This document shows positions 1,289-44,608 of a stretch of 49,439 nt of DNA, piece by piece. Numbering within the stretch: the stretch's first letter is position 1; each line of letters opens with the position of its first letter. The DNA comes from Acidobacteriaceae bacterium (lineage in GTDB: Bacteria; Acidobacteriota; Terriglobia; Terriglobales; Acidobacteriaceae). Where the stretch lies: assembly GCA_025361625.1 (NCBI GenBank), contig JANYKL010000151.1, positions 1 to 49,439 of the forward strand, given 5' to 3'. A model generated the notes under the pieces. It had not been told where the DNA came from, did not search any database, and saw only the letters and a program-made list of their open reading frames with translations. The translations under genes and the position numbers were made by a program.

Positions 1289-3670
1289 ATGTCTAAAGCT
1301 AGCGGTGCAGTGGCGTGGAAATTTTCTGCAAGTGTCAAATTCCTTGTCGTCTTTCTTGTCGTCTTTCTTGCCGTCGCCGGTTTCATGCTGGCGTTCGTTA
1401 CGTCCAGTGCCCAGGCGCAGGTTGCCAATGCCAAAAAACTTACCATCGAACAAATCTTTGCTGAGGGCGGCGTGACGGGGCGGGCACCGGAGGCGATCAA
1501 GTTCAGCCCGGATGGAACCAAGGTTTCTTTCGTACAGCGCGACGATGAAGGTGAGCACGGCGAGTTGTGGTATGTGGATGTCGCGACGGGTGAAAAGAAA
1601 GTGCTGGTGAGCGAGAGCAAGCTCGGGCAGCTTGCTCCGCCGAATAACAAGATTCAGAATGAGCGCGAGAAGGAGCGGGTAAACCGTTATCACGTCGCCG
1701 CATATTTGTGGGCTCCGGATTCGCAGCATCTTCTATTCGACGCTCACGGGCAGCTCTGGTATTACAGCCTCGACACGGGCACGGGCGTGCAGATCACGAC
1801 TTCTCCAGACGCGACCGGGGACCCGAAGTTTTCTCCCGACGGCAAACGGGTCGCGTTTGTCCGGAAACACAACTTGTATGCCAAGGCGCTGTCAGGCGAA
1901 GAAGGCGATCATGGGCTGACGCGCGACGAGAATAGAGATCGGGATAAAGACAAGGACAAAACGGAAGACAACATCCTGAACGGCGAGGTCGATTGGCTTT
2001 ATGCTGAAGAACTTGCGGTCCGGAGTAATTATTTCTGGTCGCCGGAAGGCCGCGAAATTCTGTTTCTGCAAATGGATGAGACTCGCGTGCCGGAATATCC
2101 CATCACCGATTGGTTGCCGACGCACCCGCATGTCGATCAGGAAAAATATCCAAAGGCGGGAGACCCAAATCCGGTGGTGCGCCTTGGAATGGTCGGTGGA
2201 AACGGCGGCAAAATTCATTGGGTCAAACTCACGGACGATGAAGACACCTATATACCGCGCTTTGGCTGGATCCGCGAAGGCTGGGCATGGGCGCAGGTTT
2301 TGAACCGCAAGCAAGATCGGATGGACCTCTATTTCATCGATGCGAAGTCTGGTAGATCGCGCAAAGTGCTGAGTGAGTCGGAGCCCGACGCTTGGGTGAA
2401 CGTCAATGATGACTTCAGGGTGCTGAAGTCAGGCGATCGCTTTTTGTGGACAAGCTGGCGGGACGGCAACACCCATATTTATCTTTACAGCTTTAACAAG
2501 TCTGACCCTATGGGCGGGGACGCAAAGTTGGAGCGGCAACTGGAGAAGGGCGATTACGAGGTGATCGCGATCGATGGAGTTGACGAGCCGGCATCGACGG
2601 TTTACTTCAGGGCTAATAAGAACGATCCCCGGCAGGAGAAACTTTTCTCGGTGAAGCTCGACGGTTCGGGGATGCAGGGGATCTCGCCGGCGGATGGAAA
2701 TTACACGGCGACGTTCGCCGACGACGGGAAGCATTACGTCGAGACTTACTCTGCCACTCTTTCTCCACCAAAGATTTCGATCTGCGCGCCGGGCGGGCAA
2801 CGTGAAAAAATCTGGGAGGCTCGCAGCATCGCCGGGTATAACCCGACCGCTCCGAAGGCAATGGAGTTCAAGGCCGAGGATGGCACTACCCTTTATGGGT
2901 ACCTGATTTTGCCGCGAGCTTCGGAGGGGGGATCCGAGGGCAAGGCAGAGGGCGGGCCGAAGAACGATCGAGTGTCTTCAATTTCTGCCCCAAGTTCCAT
3001 CCCTCTGATCGTCAATGTTTATGGAGGTCCGGCGGGGCAGACGGTCCAGAACGCGTGGGGTGGAACGAATGCGCTGTTTCATCAGATTTTGGCGAGAGAG
3101 GGATTCGCGATTTTTTCGGTCGATAACCGAGGCACACCCAACCGGGGCAAGAAATTTTCGGCTTCGTTCCGCTTGCAGTCTGGCGGGATCGAACTCAAAG
3201 ATCAGCTTAGTGCGCTTGAGAAATTGTATGGAGAGTATCCGCAGCTTGACCGCGCGAGAACGGGAATATGGGGATGGTCGAACGGCGGATCGATGACGTT
3301 ATACGCGCTCACTCATTCCGACCGATTTAAGGCTGGTATTTCGGTCGCTCCAGTCACGGATTGGCATGATTACGACTCCACTTACACTGAACGCTATATG
3401 GGTCTGCCGAAGGAACATCCGCAGGGCTATGACGATTCGATCGTGTCTGCCGCGGGCAAATTGCACGGGGAGTTACTGCTGGTGCATGGAACGAGTGACG
3501 ACAACGTCCACTTTCAGAATACGATCCAGATGACCAACGCCCTGATTAATGCGGGAAAGCAATTCCGGCTTATGGTGTATCCGGATAAGACGCACGGCAT
3601 TTCGGGAGCGGCAACGCGCTCGCAGCTGTTTCACATGATGGAAGATTTCTGGAATAAGGAGTTGAAGTAG
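1289..3670 (+). CDS. S9 family peptidase, dipeptidyl peptidase IV type, secreted
   Basis: A 793-aa serine peptidase of the prolyl oligopeptidase clan. Residues about 18-42 form a hydrophobic signal or anchor ending AQAQ, then a beta-propeller (repeated FSPDG and WSPEG strands, residues about 60-520) and a C-terminal alpha/beta hydrolase. The nucleophile is Ser664 in GWSNGG; Asp737 or 738 in GTSDDNVH and His769 in DKTHG complete the triad. Such enzymes clip dipeptides from peptides in the periplasm or outside the cell. An Asp/Lys/Arg-rich loop (DRDKDKDK) interrupts the propeller. It follows leuCD on the same strand but has no pathway link to it. A second S9 peptidase lies at 40.2-42.4 kb. Confidence 0.93.
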   Translation: MSKASGAVAWKFSASVKFLVVFLVVFLAVAGFMLAFVTSSAQAQVANAKKLTIEQIFAEGGVTGRAPEAIKFSPDGTKVSFVQRDDEGEHGELWYVDVATGEKKVLVSESKLGQLAPPNNKIQNEREKERVNRYHVAAYLWAPDSQHLLFDAHGQLWYYSLDTGTGVQITTSPDATGDPKFSPDGKRVAFVRKHNLYAKALSGEEGDHGLTRDENRDRDKDKDKTEDNILNGEVDWLYAEELAVRSNYFWSPEGREILFLQMDETRVPEYPITDWLPTHPHVDQEKYPKAGDPNPVVRLGMVGGNGGKIHWVKLTDDEDTYIPRFGWIREGWAWAQVLNRKQDRMDLYFIDAKSGRSRKVLSESEPDAWVNVNDDFRVLKSGDRFLWTSWRDGNTHIYLYSFNKSDPMGGDAKLERQLEKGDYEVIAIDGVDEPASTVYFRANKNDPRQEKLFSVKLDGSGMQGISPADGNYTATFADDGKHYVETYSATLSPPKISICAPGGQREKIWEARSIAGYNPTAPKAMEFKAEDGTTLYGYLILPRASEGGSEGKAEGGPKNDRVSSISAPSSIPLIVNVYGGPAGQTVQNAWGGTNALFHQILAREGFAIFSVDNRGTPNRGKKFSASFRLQSGGIELKDQLSALEKLYGEYPQLDRARTGIWGWSNGGSMTLYALTHSDRFKAGISVAPVTDWHDYDSTYTERYMGLPKEHPQGYDDSIVSAAGKLHGELLLVHGTSDDNVHFQNTIQMTNALINAGKQFRLMVYPDKTHGISGAATRSQLFHMMEDFWNKELK

Positions 3671-3715: not shown

Positions 3716-4572
3716 ATGCATCGCACGACGCTCGGCGATTTCGAACTTACCGTGGTTTCGGATGGAACTTACTTTCTTGATGGCGGAGCTTTCTTCGGCG
3801 TGGTTCCGAAGACGTTGTGGTCAAAAAAGTCACTCCCGACGATCAAAACCGGCTCGATGCAGGGTTGAACTCCCTTTTGATTCGCACGGGTGACACGAAC
3901 ATTCTGGTGGAGACGGGGATTGGAAATAAGCTGCCGGAGCGGTTAGTCCAGATTTTCAAGCAGCCCGCGAAACTCCTCGATAATCTGCACTCGGCTGGAG
4001 TTGCGCCGGAAGATATCGACATCGTGATCAATACGCATTTGCATTTCGACCATTGCGGTTGGAACACGGTGAAGCGCGCGGGACAGGTAGTTGCGACCTT
4101 TCCCAAGGCGAAGTATTACGTGCAGAACGGCGAATACGAGCATGGCCGCAAGCAACTGGAGCGGGACGCGATCAGCTACATGAGTCCGAACTATGATCCG
4201 TTGCTCGAGAACGGGCAGATGGTGCTGGTTGATGGGGATCTCGAGATTTCGCCCGGTATCTCGGTGCGGGTTTTTCCGGGACACACTGCAAACATGCAGG
4301 CAGTCGTGATCGAGAGTGGAGCGCCCGACGAAAATGGCCGGAAGAAAACCGCGTGCTATATCTCCGACCTGATTCCCACTGCGAATCACATTGACCTGAC
4401 CTGGGTCATGGCGTTCGACGTGCTTCCATTGGACACGATCAAGAGCCGAAAGAAGTACTATGCCTCAGCGATTCCGGAAAAATGGTTGACCGTGTTTACC
4501 CACGACGATCGCACTCCGTGGGGATATATCGAGCGTGATGAGCGCGGGAAGTTTTCAGTAAAGACGGTTTGA
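3716..4572 (+). CDS. MBL-fold metallohydrolase, frame broken by one base
   Basis: A metallo-beta-lactamase fold hydrolase in two frames. The ATG at 3716 opens a frame reading MHRTTLGDFELTVVSDGTYF, which runs to KTLWSKK and then stops at 3866-3868 after 50 codons. The main body continues in the -1 frame from 3823 (VTPDDQNRLDAGLNSLLIRT) to 4572, carrying the zinc motif HLHFDH at about 4036-4053 and the later GHT. Joined at the A6 run the protein would be about 285 aa, a normal length. A GTG at 3817 gives an intact 251-aa ORF, but that form lacks the first strands of the fold. The break is at a classic -1 slippery heptamer. Substrate unknown. Alternatives: sequencing error, recent pseudogene, or programmed frameshift. 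Confidence 0.8.
3823..3829 (+). promoter_or_regulatory. A AAA AAG slippery heptamer at the frame switch
   Basis: In the zero frame from ATG 3716 the codons read TCA AAA AAG, so the heptamer is A AAA AAG, the strongest bacterial -1 slip site (as in dnaX). A -1 slip here gives exactly the continuous MBL protein. I see no strong stem-loop 5-10 nt downstream and no clear upstream Shine-Dalgarno-like stimulator. Confidence 0.5.
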
Positions 4573-4619: not shown

Positions 4620-5678
4620 TCAAATCAATTCGACAGCGGGGGCGGAGAGTTTACTTTCAAAAAAGTCTTCTACTTGGATGAGTATCTCAGGGCCGCTCTT
4701 TGCCTCGTATATCGCCTTCCGCAGGGCGGCTCCTCCGGGGACGCCATGGGTGAACCACGAAGCAAATTGCTTCATTTTGCCTTCCGTTCCCGGCATTTCT
4801 TCTTCGAGCAGCATTTGAAAATACTTGCGGATCATTTGATAACGATCAGCTTCGGCGGGTTCGTCGTAGCGGGATGCGACGGTGTATTGCCGAATCTGGC
4901 GAAAGATCCAGGGATTCGACGGGGCCATGCGTCCGATCATGACGGCATCGCAACCAGTCTCGGCTACGATCGCGCAGGCGTCTTCAGGGGTGCGGACATC
5001 GCCGTTCCCGATGACCGGGATTTTTACGGCCTGCTTGACGGAAGAGATCCAGTCCCAGTTGGCATTTCCGCTATAGCCCTGCTCGCGAGTGCGGGCATGC
5101 AAGGCAACCGCGCCGAGGCCGCAATCTTCAGCCATCCGCGCGAGGTCGACGCAAACGATTTCGTCGTCGTTCCATCCCGCGCGGAACTTGACGGTGAAGG
5201 GGATTTTCACGGCGGCGCGGACGGATTCGAAAATTTGGCGAATAAGCGGCAAGTCGCGCAGCAGGCCGGAGCCTCCATTGCATTTCACAACTTTCTTCGC
5301 CGGGCAGCCCAGGTTGAGGTCGACCAGGTCGAAGCCAAAATCTTCAACCAGACGAGCAGCGTCCGCTAAGACTGCGGGGCTACTGCCGAAAAGCTGGGCC
5401 GAGATGGGGTGCTCGTCTTCGTAGAAGTGGAGATAGCGGCCGCGAACGCGCTTATCGCGCAAGAGTCCGTCAGCGGAGGTAAATTCGGTCATGATCAGGC
5501 CGCAACCGCCAAGATTCTTGATGAAGCGGCGAAAGACGGTGTCCGTGACTCCAGCCATGGGAGCGAGAACGGTTGGCGGGGAGATGCGGACGTTGCCGAT
5601 GGTGAAAGATTTGGGGAAGGCGGCAGGATCGGGCGCTCGGTTCCGCGCTACTTCGGGATTTTCCCAGAACTTTCCCAC
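4620..5678 (-). CDS. dusB: tRNA-dihydrouridine synthase, DusB type
   Basis: A 352-aa FMN-dependent tRNA-dihydrouridine synthase, which reduces uridines in the tRNA D-loop. The TIM-barrel start reads PTVLAPMAGVTDTVFRR, the active-site region LNLGCPAKKVVKCNGGSGLL holds the catalytic Cys, and later FMN-binding strands (KFRAGW, LHARTREQGYSG, VIGNGDV, VMIGRMA) are all in order. Length fits the family, with a short C-terminal helix. It converges with the MBL gene, leaving 47 bp. Whether DusA, B or C specificity applies cannot be decided beyond overall similarity to DusB. Confidence 0.93.
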   Translation of the reverse strand: MGKFWENPEVARNRAPDPAAFPKSFTIGNVRISPPTVLAPMAGVTDTVFRRFIKNLGGCGLIMTEFTSADGLLRDKRVRGRYLHFYEDEHPISAQLFGSSPAVLADAARLVEDFGFDLVDLNLGCPAKKVVKCNGGSGLLRDLPLIRQIFESVRAAVKIPFTVKFRAGWNDDEIVCVDLARMAEDCGLGAVALHARTREQGYSGNANWDWISSVKQAVKIPVIGNGDVRTPEDACAIVAETGCDAVMIGRMAPSNPWIFRQIRQYTVASRYDEPAEADRYQMIRKYFQMLLEEEMPGTEGKMKQFASWFTHGVPGGAALRKAIYEAKSGPEILIQVEDFFESKLSAPAVELI

Positions 5679-10815: not shown

Positions 10816-12372
10816 TCAGGCGGATATGGCGAGTTGGGGCGGTGGCACCTTCCCTCTCAAAGGCTTTTTTCGAAAAATTACTTTGATCTCTTCGCGCCAA
10901 CTTTCCCCGATCCCGATTACCTCCCAGTCGATCTCTGGCGAAAGGTAGCGCAGGATGGTGTCGGTCGTCGGGTGAACGTGCAGCGCGGGCGCGACGAGCA
11001 TCAGGAGTGGTTTTTCGGACGAAAGCTGGCGGCCGGGGAAATAGCCGAACTTGCTCAGCTCTCCGCGGCCTTGATGCCAATTTACGCGCGACCAGTAGTC
11101 CACGCCTTGCAAGGGCAGATGAATATCCTCGTCGGCTTTGAGCTCGATGACAGCGAGCCTTCCATCTTGCGTCTCGCCCAGAATATCGATCATGGCGCGA
11201 TCGGCGGCGGCGAAAGCGGGAACCTGAGAATAAACGCATTCGGTTCGAAGTCGGCCATCGAGCGCGGCAAGATTGGCCGTTATTGATGACTCAAGCCAAC
11301 GCTCCGGGTCTTTACGCCAGAGAGGATGATTCTTGGGGCCGTTTTTGTGGCGCACGGCTGCAGCGAGACGAATCAAGTCAGCGAAATCCGGCTCATTGCC
11401 GACGGTTAAGACACGCTCTTCGGCGCCCACGCCGAAGATAACTTCTTCATTGCTTTGGAAAGTTAGTGGGTCATGTGCCATGCGGGCCTGCGCAAACTCA
11501 AGCCCATGACAACGAAACGAGATCTCGGCAGTGGACAACGCGACCACTTCGGCCAGCGGAAGGATTTGGCGAATTCGGGCAACAGATTGAGCGAAGCGTA
11601 TGCGGCTCGCTGCGGTGTCGATCGAATGAACCAGCCGCGTAGCCAGGTTTCCACGATCGCTCAGATCGGATTGGTTCATTACATTTTCGCTCTGATCGAA
11701 TTCATACAATGTCCACTTGGCGGCCGCAGGATGAAGTTGCGCCATGCGCTGCTGCGTTAAAGTGCCGGTGCCGTCGGGGACGACCATGACCAAACCTTCT
11801 ATCGATTGCCGCGCCTGTTGCGCCAGGCGGCAGGCGTCAAGCCAAAGGATTCCGGTGGTCAGAGCGCCGTCAATCGTCGACTGACTTTCCTGGTTGTTGA
11901 CGCCAACGATGGCAAGGGCGCGCTGGCCCTGCCGCATCCATCCGCGCAGGTAAGCCGGACCGAAGGAGTGCTCGAGATCGGTGCTGGTGGTGAGGCGGAC
12001 GACGGTCCAGCCGTGAAAATATTTTTCAAGAGCGCGGCGCAAGCGAGGCTCGTAGGCGGCGCGGGCTGAGCGACGCGCGGCAGGAGAGCGATGGTCGCGA
12101 TCGCGGCAGAAATCCAGGTGGGTCGGCCTGGTCTGACCCATTTTCTGGACCTGTAACCGCAGCGTGGTTCCTTTTACTTCTGCATCGAGCACACGGCGCA
12201 CGGCGTTGCGGTCGTTCGACCACAAATGGATGAGGCATTTGTGAGTCTCTCCGCTGATGGAGTACTTCGCGTCGGCAAGGTCGAACGCGATGCCGCCGTC
12301 TTCAATCACCACTGCCGCTCGTGCGGTCATAAGAAAGTCGGAGAGCATCCGGCTGAGCGAATCGGGGGTCAT
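10816..12372 (-). CDS. unknown protein with PD-(D/E)XK-like signature
   Basis: 518 aa, no signal peptide. The C-terminal third carries Asp396 (AMIDILG), 13 residues, then Glu410-Leu-Lys412 (AVIELKADED), the layout of a PD-(D/E)XK nuclease core (D...ExK), followed by QGVDYW, a helix common after that core. The N-terminal 330 residues match nothing I recognise; they are mixed alpha/beta and Arg-rich in the middle. I think it is an uncharacterised family with a nuclease-like fold acting on nucleic acid; role in repair or defence is open. No restriction methylase or helicase is next to it. Stands alone, divergent from tldD. Confidence 0.75.
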   Translation of the reverse strand: MTPDSLSRMLSDFLMTARAAVVIEDGGIAFDLADAKYSISGETHKCLIHLWSNDRNAVRRVLDAEVKGTTLRLQVQKMGQTRPTHLDFCRDRDHRSPAARRSARAAYEPRLRRALEKYFHGWTVVRLTTSTDLEHSFGPAYLRGWMRQGQRALAIVGVNNQESQSTIDGALTTGILWLDACRLAQQARQSIEGLVMVVPDGTGTLTQQRMAQLHPAAAKWTLYEFDQSENVMNQSDLSDRGNLATRLVHSIDTAASRIRFAQSVARIRQILPLAEVVALSTAEISFRCHGLEFAQARMAHDPLTFQSNEEVIFGVGAEERVLTVGNEPDFADLIRLAAAVRHKNGPKNHPLWRKDPERWLESSITANLAALDGRLRTECVYSQVPAFAAADRAMIDILGETQDGRLAVIELKADEDIHLPLQGVDYWSRVNWHQGRGELSKFGYFPGRQLSSEKPLLMLVAPALHVHPTTDTILRYLSPEIDWEVIGIGESWREEIKVIFRKKPLRGKVPPPQLAISA

Positions 12373-31933: not shown

Positions 31934-32563
31934 CTAGTTGCTCGTCGTTTTCCACGCTTGGATCATCCCTACCACACCGCTGCGAATCTCTACGTACACG
32001 CTGTAGGATGAAGTATAGGGTTCCGCGCGGATAGTCTCTTGGTGTTCGTGCTCGAAATACAAGATATTGCCATATTTAGCAGTAGGCGGACCGAGCCTTC
32101 GAAGCACTTCGGATTCTGTTAAACCGAGGGTGATGCCGGCAGGCAACTCGATCTCAGAGGCCCCTGCTCGGCATCGCCTATCTAGAGTTGCTTTTTCAGC
32201 TACTCGTTGCAGAGCAAAGCCATCGACCAAATGGCCGCCCATTTCATTACTTTCAAGCCACAACACCCGCCGTCCCTTCGCCTCCGAGTCGTGAAAGCAG
32301 ATCCACTCCACGAAATCACCTGCGTGGCCGCTTGATCCAATGATCCCCCCGAGCTTCTTTTGAATATCCTTGAGAGGCGTCTCTTCAAGAATGACCTGCA
32401 CCTTATCCACGCGCAGTTTCGTGATCATCTCCTTGGAGACTGTCGCCTGCGGAAGATTGTCTGGAATACCTTCAAGTTTGGGCGGTTGCCAGACGACGGC
32501 GCCATCTTGAGCAAATACGACCGTGGTGGCGGCGATCAATAAAGTTATAAGAGCACGGGTCAT
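31934..32563 (-). CDS. secreted protein with BamE/SmpA-like domain
   Basis: 209 aa from ATG 32563, starting MTRALITLLIAATTVVFAQD, a clear signal peptide; the frame is open upstream but that part is not protein-like. Near the C-terminus, ITLGLTESEVLRRLGPPTAK resembles the BamE/SmpA fold, which is also found in other envelope proteins. The middle (ETPLKDIQKKLGG) repeats a weaker form of the same helix pattern. Function unknown; envelope location likely. Upstream 120 bp overlaps the left part of a decayed insertion element on the other strand. Confidence 0.7.
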   Translation of the reverse strand: MTRALITLLIAATTVVFAQDGAVVWQPPKLEGIPDNLPQATVSKEMITKLRVDKVQVILEETPLKDIQKKLGGIIGSSGHAGDFVEWICFHDSEAKGRRVLWLESNEMGGHLVDGFALQRVAEKATLDRRCRAGASEIELPAGITLGLTESEVLRRLGPPTAKYGNILYFEHEHQETIRAEPYTSSYSVYVEIRSGVVGMIQAWKTTSN

Positions 32564-32609
32564 GGCTGTTTTAGAACAAAACAAAATAGTCACTGTTGTA
32601 ACCAGATGG

Positions 32610-32974
32610 ATGAGAAGGCCGGTCTCACGGGATGCTGTATGCTCCCAAGTTATCGACGTGCTTAAGGCACAGATAAAAAGGAAAGCGGCAATGAAGAAGG
32701 TTAGCACCAGAGCGGCGGTGCAGAGCAGGAATATTTCGCAGCAGAAACTTACCGTCGGATTGGATCTGGGAGATCGCAACTGTTGGTATTGCTTGGTGGA
32801 TGAAGCCGGCCAGATACAACTCGAGCAGCGAGTCCGGACGAATGCGAAAGTGTTGCGCGAAGTTTTCGGCGCGATGGCGCGCAGTCGGATCGCGCTGGAA
32901 ATCACTCGGCGGGGAGAAGAAAACCTTGTTCAATGAAGCCAGTGAAAAATCTTGACTCCGAACGGCCTTCTCAT
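32610..32974 (+). mobile_element. decayed IS110/IS1111-type element bounded by 12-bp inverted repeats
   Basis: ATGAGAAGGCCG (32610-32621) and its exact reverse complement CGGCCTTCTCAT (32963-32974) flank a fragment with the first part of an IS110-family transposase. IS1111-type members of this family carry short subterminal inverted repeats, so the ends may be intact while most of the transposase gene is lost. The remnant is about 365 bp and lies between two secreted-protein genes. Confidence 0.7.
32691..32936 (+). pseudogene. IS110-family transposase, N-terminal fragment
   Basis: 81 codons. After MKKVSTRAAVQ it reads KLTVGLDLGDRNCWYCLVDE, the DEDD-type N-terminus of IS110 transposases with the first catalytic Asp, and goes on to RIALEITRRG, where the family would read ALETG; it stops soon after. 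About 250-300 residues, including the Ser-containing C-terminal domain, are missing. A GAAAGC leader precedes the ATG. Not functional on its own. Confidence 0.82.
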
Positions 32975-42661: not shown

Positions 42662-42738
42662 CGGGACGTAGCGCAGCCTGGTAGCGCACTTGCTTGGGGT
42701 GCAAGGGGTCGCGAGTTCAAATCTCGCCGTCCCGACCA
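42662..42738 (+). tRNA. tRNA-Pro(GGG)
   Basis: Acceptor CGGGACG pairs with CGTCCCG; D-arm GCGC/GCGC; anticodon arm CTTGC-TTGGGGT-GCAAG with anticodon GGG at 42696-42698; T-arm GCGAG-TTCAAAT-CTCGC; CCA end encoded. 77 nt. The C at the first acceptor position matches bacterial tRNA-Pro identity. Confidence 0.97.
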
Positions 42739-43954: not shown

Positions 43955-44386
43955 GATTCGTCTCCTTTGCAGAGCCTTCGGGGCGGACTAAGTGCGGGGT
44001 AACTGAAGAGTAAACCTCAAGTCAGATTTGTTTGTTGCGGCTGGACCTGCAAGAGTTGCACGCATCATCTGTTGGCGATCAAAGGGCAAACTGTATTGGT
44101 GTAACCGGCCCATATCATCGTGCAAGTCTTTCGGGTGGCCGATAGAGGCGCCTCCCCGCCATGCAGGCGAGCACGTAGGAGCGAAGGGGGTCGGACCAGC
44201 GCGTCGAGCGTTTGCCGCATCCTTCACCTGGAGGATACGAGGGCGGACTGAGGCCGCGCCCTCGTTGGGAGTTCCTCGCCGACCACCATTCGGAAGGGCG
44301 TTGTCTTGCCCGCGCCGTTGGGACGACTAGTCCGACTTTTCGCTGAGATTAAACTGAAAGGAGGCATCCACGAAGGGCAACTGCTT
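43955..44386. other. gap with one hairpin
   Basis: A hairpin ACGAGGGCG (44237-44245) / CGCCCTCGT (44257-44265) without T-run. No gene seen. The palindromic element begins at the right edge. Confidence 0.45.
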
Positions 44387-44608
44387 GGCGGGTGGCCCGG
44401 GTTTCAAACTGCAAAGCCACCACAGATGCGGGTGCCCCGTCCTTCGCGTACTTTGCGAAGGGTGGGTACGACAACGACATAAACAACGGGTAGTTTAAAA
44501 CGGACAAGAGTTGCGCCGGCATCATCGTCACCCACCCTTTGCAAAAAACGCAAGATGGGGCACCCTCCGTGGCAATGGTGCAATGCAAAGATGGGCCACC
44601 CGCCCGGG
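44387..44608. repeat. 222-bp imperfect palindromic element
   Basis: The left arm (44387-44468) and the right arm (44529-44608) are imperfect reverse complements over about 80 bp around a 60-bp loop. Matching blocks: GGCGGGTGGCC, CTGCAAAG/TTGCAT, GGGTGCCCC, and TTTGCGAAGGGTGGGT. The design is that of a miniature inverted-repeat or large REP-like element; the words GGGTGCCCC and AAGGGTGGG recur in intergenic DNA of Terriglobia in my memory. An ORF inside is a by-product. Confidence 0.75.

Follow-up and report, generated by a model that had tools for sequence, protein, structure and literature searches.

The window, a stretch of 49,439 nucleotides, corresponds to contig C40 in a draft genome of 3.83 Mb and 196 contigs. 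Near its beginning lies an MBL-fold, lactonase-like gene that is divided between two plus-strand reading frames. It is flanked by two intact genes, each recognized as an open reading frame with a profile match and used as a control: a DPPIV-type S9 peptidase gene (DPP; 1289-3670, plus strand) upstream and a tRNA-dihydrouridine synthase gene (Dus; 4620-5678, minus strand) downstream. The 5' piece (3716-3868) is an ORF of 50 aa that starts at the ATG at 3716 with MHRTTLGDFELTVVSDGTYFLDGGAFFGVVPKTLWSKK; its 36 codons up to an A run are followed by out-of-frame codons and a TGA at 3866-3868. The 3' piece (3817-4572) lies in the -1 frame and forms an ORF of 251 aa from a GTG, with a Lactamase_B match and the metal motif HxHxDH, read from the sequence at 4036-4053. 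The frame changes at the heptamer A_AAA_AAG (3823-3829, plus strand), whose first A occupies the third codon position in the 3716 frame, which is the slip phase. Its A6 run is the longest homopolymer within the gene. We found no second break within 3817-4572 and no second copy of the gene at E 1e-30 in the same genome.

The two pieces match complementary parts of the NCBIfam profile NF047919, positions 2-34 for the N piece (E 1.4e-9) and 33-256 of 274 for the C piece, and are therefore one gene in two frames. Joined, they give 36 + 249 codons, a protein of 285 aa. Sixteen copies from the genus match almost completely; 13 of them have open frames of 280-297 aa, and the other three are longer because their frame runs open upstream. 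The arrangement is as the original prediction had described it: a frame that stops after 50 codons with its remainder in the -1 frame, a slippery heptamer in the correct phase at the switch, a joined protein of normal length and an intact zinc motif.

The C piece alone scored 62.3 bits against PF00753 (gathering cut-off 22.7), which places it in the MBL superfamily, and its nearest solved structure is 3esh, a metal-dependent hydrolase. An intact orthologue from a relative (L032) aligned at residues 6-258 of the 275 given, and its alignment with 3esh starts at residue 3 of that chain. NF047919 is an equivalog profile for YtnP lactonase with a curated cut-off of 425; the orthologue scored 202.6 bits, so the gene is best called lactonase-like and falls short of an exact YtnP assignment. 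The two window pieces, at 130.1 and 37.5 bits, were also below this cut-off. As judged by sequence comparison, the gene encodes a hydrolase of the MBL fold, lactonase-like and related to the YtnP, AidB and methyl-parathion-hydrolase group. The YtnP-type lactonases, which are quorum-quenching enzymes, and 3esh provide its best profile and best solved relative, whereas the orthologue's score (202.6 against 425) marks the window gene as a distant cousin of them.

Other features were observed elsewhere in the window. An imperfect inverted repeat with arms at 44446-44467 and 44530-44551 lies within 44386-44606, pieces of which matched several places in five of the six genus relatives searched (G006 being the exception); by these sequence matches it resembles a palindromic repeat element dispersed in this genus. 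A tRNA-Pro (GGG) gene is located at 42662-42738, where about 80 bases are identical to places in G002 and G016. The segment 32592-32798, inside the minus-strand ORF 31934-32905, had several matches in G011 and single ones in other relatives, and may represent a gene family or a repeat.

Orthologues were compared at the junction. The search of 101 genomes, counting the one that the window comes from, gave a match at E <= 1e-30 in 82. For the comparison, 30 loci of the 82 matching genomes were combined with the best 80 of 335 from named genomes; these 80 listed relatives are, according to their titles, metagenome-assembled genomes of Acidobacteriota. In total 111 loci were entered, and 86 distinct sequences of relatives span the junction. 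All 86 were open in a single frame over the 36 codons preceding the junction and on across it, and a slip-phase AAAAAAG was absent from all 86 in the interval from -24 to +30 nt. Two sequences (L024 and L105) contain A6-G inside an unbroken frame, so A6 alone does not amount to a break. No stops were found inside the matches of the genome search with the C piece, a query that lies outside the junction. Four of 23 genus relatives (G012, G014, G020, and G022; 72-91% complete) lacked a match at E 1e-30, and gene loss in the genus is therefore conceivable. Two copies were considered as further broken cases and rejected: that of G019 falls into two pieces, but its alignment enters unread residues (X) near the break, and the two pieces of the G007 copy share one frame with an in-frame gap. 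Both are open at the place where the window gene is broken.

These results run against one half of the original prediction, a programmed frameshift at this site: unbroken relatives lacking the slip site are the outcome which that prediction itself had named as a refutation. The other half, loss of one base from an A7 run, fared better in part: a one-base loss is supported, but an A7 ancestor is not established, as 11 of the 86 sequences read AAG-AAG-GTC at the junction place and the missing base may thus come from either the A run or the G behind it. Compared with the 12 closest of 23 relatives, the first 36 codons showed 91.7-100% identity; the part after the break showed 74.9-81.6% identity with the 12 closest of 20. 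Over the C piece, identity to the nearest relatives is about 82%, so none of them belongs to the same species.

Programmed -1 ribosomal frameshifting at A_AAA_AAG, yielding products of 50 and 285 aa in this species, would be in keeping with the phase of the heptamer and with two pieces that join seamlessly on the family profile. The same heptamer in the same phase is used in dnaX and in the -1 frameshifting of IS3-family elements, as described in the available text of PMC4066793 and PMC3711429; unlike those systems as they are presented there, the window gene has no conservation of the site, no SD-like stimulator, no exceptional hairpin, and no second product of known role. The 50-aa protein would be the cut-off N-terminus of a hydrolase, with no obvious use. 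The available text of PMC3711429 (Antonov et al. 2013) also requires a conserved site before a frameshift is called programmed. Our literature search found no published programmed frameshift at a slippery site in a bacterial metallo-beta-lactamase gene. Given that the in-phase site is absent from all 86 inspected sequences of relatives and that their frames are unbroken, we regard programmed frameshifting as very improbable.

The heptamer and its surroundings were also compared with background. AAAAAAG occurs 17 times in the window against 11.57 expected, and 6 of 100 shuffles reached 17; its occurrence alone is not beyond chance. Among coding-like ORFs of at least 250 codons in the window and 20 other genome stretches, 9 of 158 (about 6%) carry A_AAA_AAG in phase. 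SD-like stimulator patterns, placed 6-17 nt upstream by the rule given in the available text of PMC4066793, were sought as GAGG, GGAG, AGGA, GGNGG, or AGGK, and none occurs within 30 nt before the heptamer. The published rule for stimulatory hairpins, as printed in the same text, has them start 4-10 nt downstream. The original prediction had proposed a search for a conserved downstream stem, and a predicted hairpin that agrees with this rule is present 6 nt past the heptamer (3835-3890, plus strand), but it is indistinguishable from those at random positions. Among 60 plus-strand control positions between 6000 and 48000 of the window, coding or not and with hairpins of up to 100 nt, the rule was matched at 37, and at 24 the hairpin was at least as strong. 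The fold of the 80 nt from 3829 was rejected as a stimulator (-20.5 kcal/mol, z -0.39; 64 of 200 shuffles as good). The slip heptamer is probably a by-product of Ser-Lys-Lys, common here in the family, encoded with A-rich codons.

Two further explanations were considered. Slippage of RNA polymerase on the A run could restore the frame in part of the transcripts; an A run is indeed present at the break, but A6 is shorter than the An with n>7 that the available text of PMC3711429 names for programmed transcriptional realignment, and the break is not conserved among the sequences inspected, which makes this explanation extremely unlikely. Alternatively, the downstream frame could be a functional separate gene encoding a 251-aa enzyme from the GTG at 3817, which does open the ORF. 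However, the 36 residues that this enzyme would lack are better conserved than the part after the break, the alignment of the intact orthologue with 3esh passes through them, and the region free of SD-like patterns includes the stretch before 3817. We consider a separate downstream gene scarcely credible.

Selection after the break was examined by counting codons changed only in the window or only in a sister sequence. The window-only ratio of pooled nonsynonymous to synonymous changes (n/s) was 0.36 compared to 0.18 in sisters, a 1.95-fold difference; the triples share sequences, so that pooled counts are non-independent, and the ratios are rough, with synonymous sites near saturation between these species. 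For the intact neighbours the corresponding figure was 2.02 (LeuD), 1.38 (DPP) and, based on 4 of 12 triples, 1.91 (Dus). The window copy is altered at nine otherwise genus-invariant positions, the most of 17 sequences and ahead of a runner-up with six, although the window lineage also holds the larger share of changes in neighbouring genes. In a wider set of 28 relatives, taken from both strands and omitting L023 as too short, the window deviated at none of the 72 positions invariant among these other 28 sequences. As far as substitution counts can tell, there is no gene-specific decay after the break, and the n/s excess is common to the neighbours. Because the gene is no more relaxed than its intact neighbours, the break is either very recent or present only in the assembly.

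These counts bear on two other readings. An old pseudogene, decaying since the break, would account for the nine changed positions, which exceed those of any of the 16 genus relatives. Against this reading stand the lack of a second break in the 3' piece, the unaltered 72 positions, and an n/s shift within the range of the intact neighbours, and it appears most improbable. The resemblance of downstream selection to that of intact neighbours also agrees with programmed frameshifting, and it would be compatible with a newborn recoding site caught before decay, under continued purifying selection downstream, to which we assign a small chance. Such recoding would be restricted to this species: a base recently lost at an A_AAA_AAG already in place, with the loss tolerated because slippage still makes enough full-length hydrolase. 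We hold this course of events to be very unlikely as well.

Other frame breaks were sought by comparison with ORFs of the relatives. The first survey took ORFs of 100 aa or more from 20 stretches of relatives and matches of 45% identity or more. It gave 22 candidate rows, of which nine were the MBL gene, four were the Dus gene of relative G009, and nine others are probably shadow frames. The stricter survey, limited to coding-like ORFs of 90 aa or more and to matches with 50% identity or more and a length of 18 aa or more, covered 35,844 of 347,829 bases (29,617 in the window and 6,227 in 20 sampled stretches from the rest of the genome). It left the MBL break and one row at 11462-12222 on the plus strand; the latter lies over the minus-strand ORF 10816-12372 and was taken for a shadow frame. 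The Dus gene of G009 (L130:3198-4240) was observed in three frames and is thus broken twice in that draft, an example of frame breaks in the genus's draft assemblies. One convincing break in the 29,617 covered window bases suggests that the window's assembly is not riddled with errors.

The gene is, with high probability, an ordinary lactonase-like MBL gene that, in this one assembly, is one base short where the A6 run meets the following G. The loss is unprogrammed: the consensus or assembly is in error, or else an inactivating deletion took place very recently. The frame itself was observed to be broken and those of the relatives to be intact, whereas the cause of the loss is our inference. 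In our judgement, a consensus error and a fresh deletion in the lineage are about equally probable. If the deletion is real, translation would be expected to yield a 50-residue peptide without evident use and, by accidental slippage, at most trace amounts of the full-length enzyme. In the available text of PMC4066793, frameshifting in the absence of stimulators is 2.1-10 times a background of 0.055%, from which we estimate accidental slippage at about 0.5% or less. As A6 is the longest homopolymer in the gene, an indel or consensus error would be expected there anyway. What counts against a one-base loss is the coincidence with a very shift-prone heptamer in exactly the right phase, as well as the single convincing break in the window and the nine changed genus-invariant positions.

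According to the available text of PMC3711429, singleton frame breaks validated by BLASTp are expected to be sequencing errors and not indel mutations. The window gene resembles the singleton frame-broken genes described there in that the protein match spans the break, the site is a homopolymer, and the break is unshared by the inspected relatives; it differs in that complete genomes were used in that study, whereas the window comes from a draft. An in-phase slip heptamer where a gene is broken says little in favour of programmed frameshifting, since indels arise at A runs too and about 6% of the long ORFs sampled from this genome carry this heptamer in phase. Comparison with orthologues separates a programmed frameshift from an indel quickly.
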